From contig NZ_CP008887.1 of the NCBI RefSeq assembly GCF_000769655.1, positions 682,001 to 746,000 of the forward strand: a DNA stretch of 64,000 nucleotides. The letters are read 5' to 3'. The position numbers and the translations under genes are program-made. The stretch's first letter is position 1. Each line of letters opens with the position of its first letter. The notes beneath the pieces were generated by a model, which saw only the letters and a list, made by a program, of their open reading frames with translations, ran no database searches and had not been told where the DNA came from. Below are positions 5,515-64,000 of the stretch, one piece after another. The stretch is from Thermococcus eurythermalis. GTDB taxonomy: Archaea > Methanobacteriota_B > Thermococci > Thermococcales > Thermococcaceae.

Positions 5515-5524
5515 CGGGAGTGTA

Positions 5525-5576
5525 CCCTCCCCGACCGTCCCCCGCTCATTCATCACGGGGGTGTGAGAGGGGAGGG
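5525..5576. repeat. Nested GC-rich inverted repeat
   Basis: The outer arms CCCTCCCC (5525-5532) and GGGGAGGG (5569-5576) are perfect complements. Inside them, CCCCC (5539-5543) pairs with GGGGG (5557-5561). It begins 10 bases after the NTP phosphatase stop and could form a long hairpin in the transcript. It has no T-tract, so it is not a classical archaeal terminator; it may be an RNA-stability element or a decayed repeat. Confidence 0.55.
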
Positions 5577-5645
5577 CGGTTACGGTTAGGCTTTCGGGTT
5601 TTAAGATTTTATGGAGTTTTAGCCAAGCACTGTCAACGGTAGAGT

Positions 5646-63018: not shown

Positions 63019-63225
63019 ATGAGAGATAACTTCGAGAGTGAGATTGTCGACATGCTCCGCGAGGGGGAGCTGAGCGTTGCGTTCATTACCCGTTTCCTCA
63101 CGGAGCGGGGGTTCGACGTAACCAGGCAGAGGGTCGAGCGCACACTTAGGCGGCTGGTTGGGGAGGGAAAGGTGGAGTTCAGGGTCGGCAATAACGGAAG
63201 AAAGCAGTATCGGTTGGCACGGTGA
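63019..63225 (+). CDS. Small winged-helix protein
   Basis: The protein has 68 residues. The whole chain matches one winged helix: VDMLREGELSVAFITRFL as helices 1-2, TRQRVERTLRRLVGEGKVEF as recognition helix and first wing strand, NGRKQYRLAR as second strand. It is likely a DNA-binding regulator, possibly of its own operon or the secreted-protein gene downstream. GGGAGGT precedes the ATG. The stop overlaps the upstream frame of the next gene, whose chosen start is six bases further. Confidence 0.82.
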   Translation: MRDNFESEIVDMLREGELSVAFITRFLTERGFDVTRQRVERTLRRLVGEGKVEFRVGNNGRKQYRLAR

Positions 63226-63230
63226 TTGCC

Positions 63231-63662
63231 ATGGGAACTTCCTCGGTCATACTCGGAAACAGCAGGAGGATGCTCATGATAGAGTACCTCAAGAAGTCCG
63301 ATGGCCGGGCAGAGCTGAGGGAAATGGTGGAATACATCGCGGAGAACGAGGGGAACACCGACAGGAAGCACAGAAAGAGCGTGTACGTCAGCCTCGTTCA
63401 GACACATATCCCAAAACTTGAGCGTGAGGGCGTCATAACGTTCCGACACGGTGTCGTGACCCTTGTAAAGGTTCCTGACGACGTTACGGTCTATATGGAG
63501 ACGGTCAAAAAGAACGACATAAGCTGGAGCTCTTTTTACGTGGGGCTCTCGCTGATATTCCTCATACTTGCCGTTTCACTCAACGACCTTTATCTTGCCA
63601 TGGCCTCGCTGGTTTACGCTGGTGTTGGCGTTATCCACCACAGGAAAATGAAGCGCATTTAG
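63231..63662 (+). CDS. Winged-helix-like membrane protein
   Basis: The protein has 143 residues. An N-terminal winged-helix-like part (RRMLMIEYLKKSDGRAELRE, then SVYVSLVQTHIPKLEREGVI) is followed by two membrane segments (FYVGLSLIFLILAVSL and YLAMASLVYAGVGVI). Membrane-bound winged-helix proteins of this form (DUF7344-like) occur widely in archaea and may be membrane-linked regulators. The ATG at 63231 follows GGTGATTGCC. It is in an operon with the small winged-helix gene. Confidence 0.75.
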   Translation: MGTSSVILGNSRRMLMIEYLKKSDGRAELREMVEYIAENEGNTDRKHRKSVYVSLVQTHIPKLEREGVITFRHGVVTLVKVPDDVTVYMETVKKNDISWSSFYVGLSLIFLILAVSLNDLYLAMASLVYAGVGVIHHRKMKRI

Positions 63663-63712
63663 GCCTTCTTTTCTTGGGTAACCTACCATTACCTGCAGTT
63701 AACCCGACATTT

Positions 63713-63720
63713 CATATATA
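63713..63720 (+). promoter_or_regulatory. TATA box of the structured leader
   Basis: CATATATA lies about 25 bases before 63741-63745, so transcription would begin right at the first leader hairpin (GCAACCC/GGGTTGC). Confidence 0.6.
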
Positions 63721-63740
63721 CCCCAACGGCTCAAGGGATT

Positions 63741-63883
63741 AGTGAGCAACCCGCAAGGGGTTGCAGAGGCACTGCGTTGAGTTCACCGTTGCAGTGGTTG
63801 TTGAGTGTCCGAGGTCAGGGATGAACCTTCACTCTCACCGCTGGCTTCTCTGCCACAGTGCCTCCAATTCGGAGGCGAAAAAA
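63741..63883 (+). promoter_or_regulatory. Structured 5' leader with mutually exclusive helices, candidate cis-regulatory RNA
   Basis: Hairpin A: GCAACCC (63746-63752) with GGGTTGC (63758-63764). CACTGC (63770-63775) can pair with GCAGTG (63791-63796), or the overlapping GAGGCACTG (63766-63774) can pair with CAGTGCCTC (63856-63864). The latter overlaps GCCTCC (63860-63865), which can instead pair with the ribosome site GGAGGC (63871-63876) around AATTC. A further stem is GAGTG/CACTC (63803-63807 and 63830-63834) enclosing AGGT/ACCT. The two states would hide or expose the ribosome site. All pairings are read from sequence; function is inferred. Confidence 0.5.
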
Positions 63884-64000
63884 ATGAGAAAGAATCTTGC
63901 CTTAGGAATTTTTGGCCTGTTGGTGGCCTTTGGTCTCGTGTTAGGGGCTGGAGCCAACTTCAGGGACTACAACGCTGACAGGAGTGTCCACTGGGACATC
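63884..64000 (+). CDS. Secreted surface protein, N-terminus only (DUF1102/TasA-like)
   Basis: Thirty-nine codons are in the window. A signal peptide (NLALGIFGLLVAFGLVLGAG) is followed by ANFRDYNADRSVHWDI, which resembles the start of DUF1102 proteins of Thermococcales (a first strand with ADR then a short acidic repeat). GGAGGCG precedes the ATG by seven bases. It follows a 140-base structured leader. It probably forms part of the cell-surface coat; the rest lies outside the window. Confidence 0.7.
   Translation, partial: MRKNLALGIFGLLVAFGLVLGAGANFRDYNADRSVHWDI

Follow-up and report, generated by a model that had tools for sequence, protein, structure and literature searches.

A conserved 5' leader with two mutually exclusive helices as a probable translational control element of a bundling-pilus-like operon in Thermococcus

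Leader and small RNAs described in Thermococcales include sscA, located in the leader of aEF1-alpha, as well as crcB (fluoride) and preQ1 candidates, and are mostly without proven function (PMC4247193). The 2014 primary transcriptome of Thermococcus kodakarensis noted no direct experimental support for in vivo attenuator or riboswitch control in archaea (PMC4247193). Here, a 5' leader (63741-63883) of Thermococcus eurythermalis is described from a window of 64,000 nucleotides (contig NZ_CP008887.1, positions 682,001 to 746,000, forward strand), to which all coordinates refer. Comparison of this leader with Rfam 15 returned nothing at gathering score and only chance-level matches at E values up to 5, in agreement with the initial annotation, which had recognised no known riboswitch class. 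Furthermore, no description of the leader was found in the literature searched (open-licence papers). Elsewhere in the window, an Rfam match to the Pab91 H/ACA guide RNA was identified on the minus strand (5521-5577). The leader is best read as a new, previously uncatalogued translational on/off leader, and we consider it probable that it controls the translation of a bundling-pilus-like operon by the choice between two helices. The output of the filament-like protein would then probably be controlled by RNA folding.

The leader precedes a plus-strand gene for a DUF1102 protein of 197 amino acids, a putative bundling-pilus-like subunit, which starts at ATG 63884, 8 nt 3' of the GGAGG site, and runs past the window end (63884-64000 within the window). 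A second DUF1102 gene and one for a signal peptidase-like protein come next in the genome, together with two more genes that match DUF11 and, below threshold, DUF5305. The predicted structure of the DUF1102 protein (mean pLDDT 80) has as its top PDB match 7ueg_A (E value 1.3e-5, probability 1.00), the bundling pilus subunit of Pyrobaculum calidifontis, related to TasA-type filaments. This fold match to a solved bundling-pilus subunit, with a whole-chain TM-score of only ~0.4 and 13% identity, refines the earlier designation of the gene as one encoding a surface protein. The structural match and the signal peptidase-like neighbour together make an extracellular filament role of the DUF1102 protein likely. 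No mention of DUF1102 was found in the open-licence papers searched. Among the 34 carriers of the leader described below, the gene starts with TTG in 17 and with ATG in 17.

At the predicted 5' end of the transcript is the hairpin P0 (63746-63764), in which GCAACCC (63746-63752) pairs with GGGTTGC (63758-63764). It is followed by the 5' strand of P1 (63766-63779), comprising GAGGCACTG (63766-63774), a CGU bulge and UG (63778-63779), which pairs over a long range with a 3' strand (63854-63864) consisting of CA (63854-63855) and CAGTGCCTC (63856-63864); the UG/CA pairs thereby extend the helix across the 3-nt bulge. P1 encloses an interior (63780-63853) with variable stems and length and no conserved core. 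The hairpin over the ribosome site, PSD (63860-63876), is formed by GCCTCC (63860-63865), an AATTC loop and GGAGGC (63871-63876), and contains the Shine-Dalgarno site GGAGG (63871-63875). As GCCUC is common to both helices, P1 and PSD are mutually exclusive, an arrangement at the Shine-Dalgarno site that is typical of riboswitches, that is kept in all 34 leaders and by which access to the site may be controlled. The complementarities proposed in the initial annotation (63766-63774 with 63856-63864, CACTGC at 63770-63775 with GCAGTG at 63791-63796, and GCCTCC with GGAGGC) are all present at these positions, and its view of competing helices over the ribosome site agrees with the retention of P1 and PSD in 34 orthologous leaders. 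CACTGC/GCAGTG, which it had regarded as the second alternative stem, is present in T. eurythermalis but has not been kept across the leaders (paired in 62% of cells and without compensatory changes). The compensatory changes that the annotation had suggested looking for in both alternative stems were found in P1 (p ~0.002) and not in CACTGC/GCAGTG.

The common design, with P0, P1 and PSD all kept, was identified in 34/34 leaders from 34 Thermococcus species. In a sequence-only alignment of these leaders, 96.8% of P1 cells are paired and four pairs have changed on both sides, including exchanges of CACUG/CAGUG for CAUC..A/U.GAUG and of U-A via C-G to U-G. The covariation score of P1 was matched by none of 500 shuffles, and none of six slid versions of the helix came near it. 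A tree-based null, which lets every column change along the gene tree at its observed frequency, gave p = 0.002 for P1 with the sequence-only alignment and p = 0.004 when six bulged variants were hand-aligned; these values are moderate, with few independent changes behind them. A palindrome at the DNA level in place of an RNA helix is disfavoured, since the G-U pairs of P1 fit only the plus strand, that of the leader. The six-base stem of P0 (GCRRCC/GGYYGC) is intact or has one mismatch in 34/34 leaders, with AU, GC and GU exchanges and a covariation p of 0.03 against the same null. PSD is 100% paired in all 34 leaders with almost no variation and, being invariant, cannot itself be supported by covariation. 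An invariant C likewise follows GGAGG in the carriers, while this position is not conserved at other GGAGG start sites of the window; as the ribosome site itself does not need this C, its retention argues for PSD. Within the 64-kb window, the pattern GCCTC-N3..10-GGAGGC, which is palindromic and was therefore counted on both strands, occurs once (0.27 expected). Chance is untenable as an explanation of P1 and PSD because both are conserved across 34 leaders. RNAalifold applied to a MAFFT alignment picked P0 and PSD and missed P1, as expected from the conflict between the two helices. Mean column conservation is 0.51 in the interior versus 0.87-1.0 in P0, P1 and the Shine-Dalgarno site, and the length of the interior differs greatly among the 34 leaders, with conserved flanks of P1 on either side (UG after its 5' strand, UUCCA before its 3' strand). 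What the sequence comparison shows is the conservation of P0, P1 and PSD and the incompatibility of P1 with PSD; the direction and timing of control and the existence of a trigger are inferred.

A search with the start of the DUF1102 protein identified orthologues in most genomes of the genus. The leader element itself, searched with a covariance model built from the 34 leaders, is present in 34 of the 61 members of the genus and absent from the 33 other Thermococcales genomes; each carrier genome has exactly one strong copy, always before the DUF1102 gene. The pattern TGCCTC-N-GGAGGCGAAA gave the same answer as the covariance model in 32 genomes. Weaker matches of the model in the same or other Thermococcales genomes were read as coding or unrelated sequence, and a pattern match on a viral contig (L115), in an unrelated phage-like context, was read as chance. 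Orthologues in the remaining genus members are preceded by shorter leaders of a different kind. The carriers form one group in the protein tree, save for one weakly placed orthologue nested among them that has no leader (L037). The leader is also absent upstream of DUF1102 relatives in Geoglobus/Archaeoglobus assemblies (L109, L110, L111 and L112). These proteins are ~57-62% identical to the Thermococcus protein but lack the leader, which suggests mixed bins or a transferred gene. The sister clade has short leaders whose C-rich strands are able to pair with the ribosome site; no clear excess over shuffled leaders was seen, and a common logic was not adopted for them. One such leader (L113:1440-1500) contains GUGCCUC..GGGGCAC followed by GGAGGC, and the 5' strand of its hairpin could also pair with the ribosome site; it may represent the same logic with swapped strands, although the test applied did not set it apart from chance.

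Upstream of the leader, a TATA box (CATATATA, 63713-63720) was identified. With archaeal transcription starting ~23 bp downstream of TATA (PMC4247193), the transcript would begin at ~63740-63745, which fits the earlier proposal that the TATA box places the start at the first hairpin. The spacing from TATA to P0 is 29-34 nt in 34/34 leaders while the distance from TATA to the start codon varies from 132 to 188 nt, and P0 is therefore tied to the transcript start. Directly 5' of the TATA box lies the promoter-proximal motif GGTAA..ATTACC..GTTAACC (63677-63703). A motif of this kind (GGTAAT/ATTACC/GTAA, or GGTAA..TTACC..GTTAA/GGTAA) is kept at this place in nearly all carriers and also at sister-clade genes with an unrelated leader RNA; it is probably a transcription-factor site. 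Further upstream, two small genes (63019-63225 and 63222-63662) are candidate regulators, the second carrying a DUF7344 domain.

Folding energies are model values, obtained by extrapolating nearest-neighbour parameters (1 M NaCl) to 80-85 C. Each leader allows both folds; at 37 C, PSD is generally the more stable one, by ~0-12 kcal/mol in those listed. In a transcript ending just before GGAGGC, the median probability of P1 is 1.00 at 37 C, 0.97 at 70 C and 0.80 at 80 C. At full length it is 0.16 at 80 C, and the closed PSD hairpin wins in nearly all leaders; two (L036 and L026) are predicted to be open even at full length. In addition, the interior sequences favour P1 more than shuffled interiors do (p = 0.005).

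In the open state, P1 would capture GCCUC and leave the Shine-Dalgarno GGAGG free; in the closed state, GCCUCC would pair with GGAGGC and cover the ribosome site. P1 could form first in the nascent transcript because GGAGGC is made only after the 3' strand of P1. A new transcript would thus be open at first and later pass into the closed hairpin, unless P1 were stabilised, for which a protein, another RNA, ions or temperature are candidates. P0 probably protects the transcript or docks a factor.

A specific form of this explanation, with a trans-acting trigger, is that an RNA-binding protein or small RNA holds P1 or PSD, which we regard as possible. The conserved parts of the leader are the helices and their flanks and not an interior pocket, as this reading would have it, and control through the L7Ae leader exists in archaea (PMC6298567). 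However, no recognisable kink-turn was found in P1, to which this comparison was confined and where the 3-nt bulge is followed by U-A and G-C and not by tandem G-A, and no factor or antisense partner was identified.

More tentatively, the choice between the two helices may act as a kinetic RNA timer, open during transcription and closed afterwards, so that only fresh transcripts of the filament operon would be translated unless a factor holds P1. If true, this would constitute a native co-transcriptional translational switch in hyperthermophilic archaea.

We consider it unlikely that the leader is an RNA thermometer, in which heating melts PSD, the sole cover of the ribosome site, and P1 is secondary. 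In silico, PSD melts at ~92 C, close to the Thermococcus growth range, its median occupancy falling from 0.90 at 70 C through 0.73 (85 C) to 0.38 (95 C), which is no more than compatible with a heat response. Melting in this range would, however, be expected of any short GC-rich hairpin, and the conservation and covariation of P1 would be left unexplained. As the ribosome site has a median openness of only 17% at 85 C, heat alone is a weaker explanation, a thermosensor being possible.

A static structure, in which the helices stabilise the messenger or fix a constant low translation rate without switching, would suit the lack of any known condition dependence, as well as the hairpin at the 5' end, a typical messenger stabiliser. 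It would, however, not need two mutually exclusive conserved pairings of one segment, and is improbable on that account.

That the region inside P1 is the aptamer of a new class of metabolite riboswitch is very doubtful: although the opposition of P1 and a sequestering hairpin has the architecture of a translational on-switch and the conserved UG and UUCCA flank the region, an ordinary metabolite aptamer is unsupported because the interior is poorly conserved (0.51) and of very unequal length, and the leader always precedes one and the same structural operon, in which there is no metabolic gene, and has no Rfam match.

The preferred reading, a leader that governs translation through the choice between P1 and PSD, thus describes a compact candidate with comparative support, located before a surface-filament-like operon in a genus with a genetically tractable species. 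With it, switch-type RNA control can be tested directly in hyperthermophiles, and the question arises of what sets P1 against PSD. Of the known systems, the Pyrobaculum calidifontis bundling pilus (7ueg) is the best structural match of the DUF1102 protein and is consistent with the signal peptidase-like gene in the cluster, but bears on the controlled gene and not on the leader RNA. The sscA RNA and the crcB and preQ1 candidates belong to different genes, and no Rfam family matches the DUF1102 leader. Closer in kind is the L7Ae-responsive leader of archaeal L7Ae mRNA, likewise an archaeal structured leader proposed to control translation, which uses a kink-turn of a type not recognisable in P1 and precedes an unrelated gene (PMC6298567). 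In RNA thermometers, as in this leader, a short hairpin covers the ribosome site with predicted melting near the growth range; the Thermococcus leader differs by a further helix, both conserved and covarying, that competes with the hairpin for one segment. With translational riboswitches of the on-type it has in common two mutually exclusive helices that share an anti-Shine-Dalgarno segment, a P1-like helix freeing the ribosome site, but it has no conserved aptamer core, ligand or Rfam match and precedes a single structural operon. The leader shares the logic of translational riboswitches and of thermometers, and is at most a candidate member of either class.
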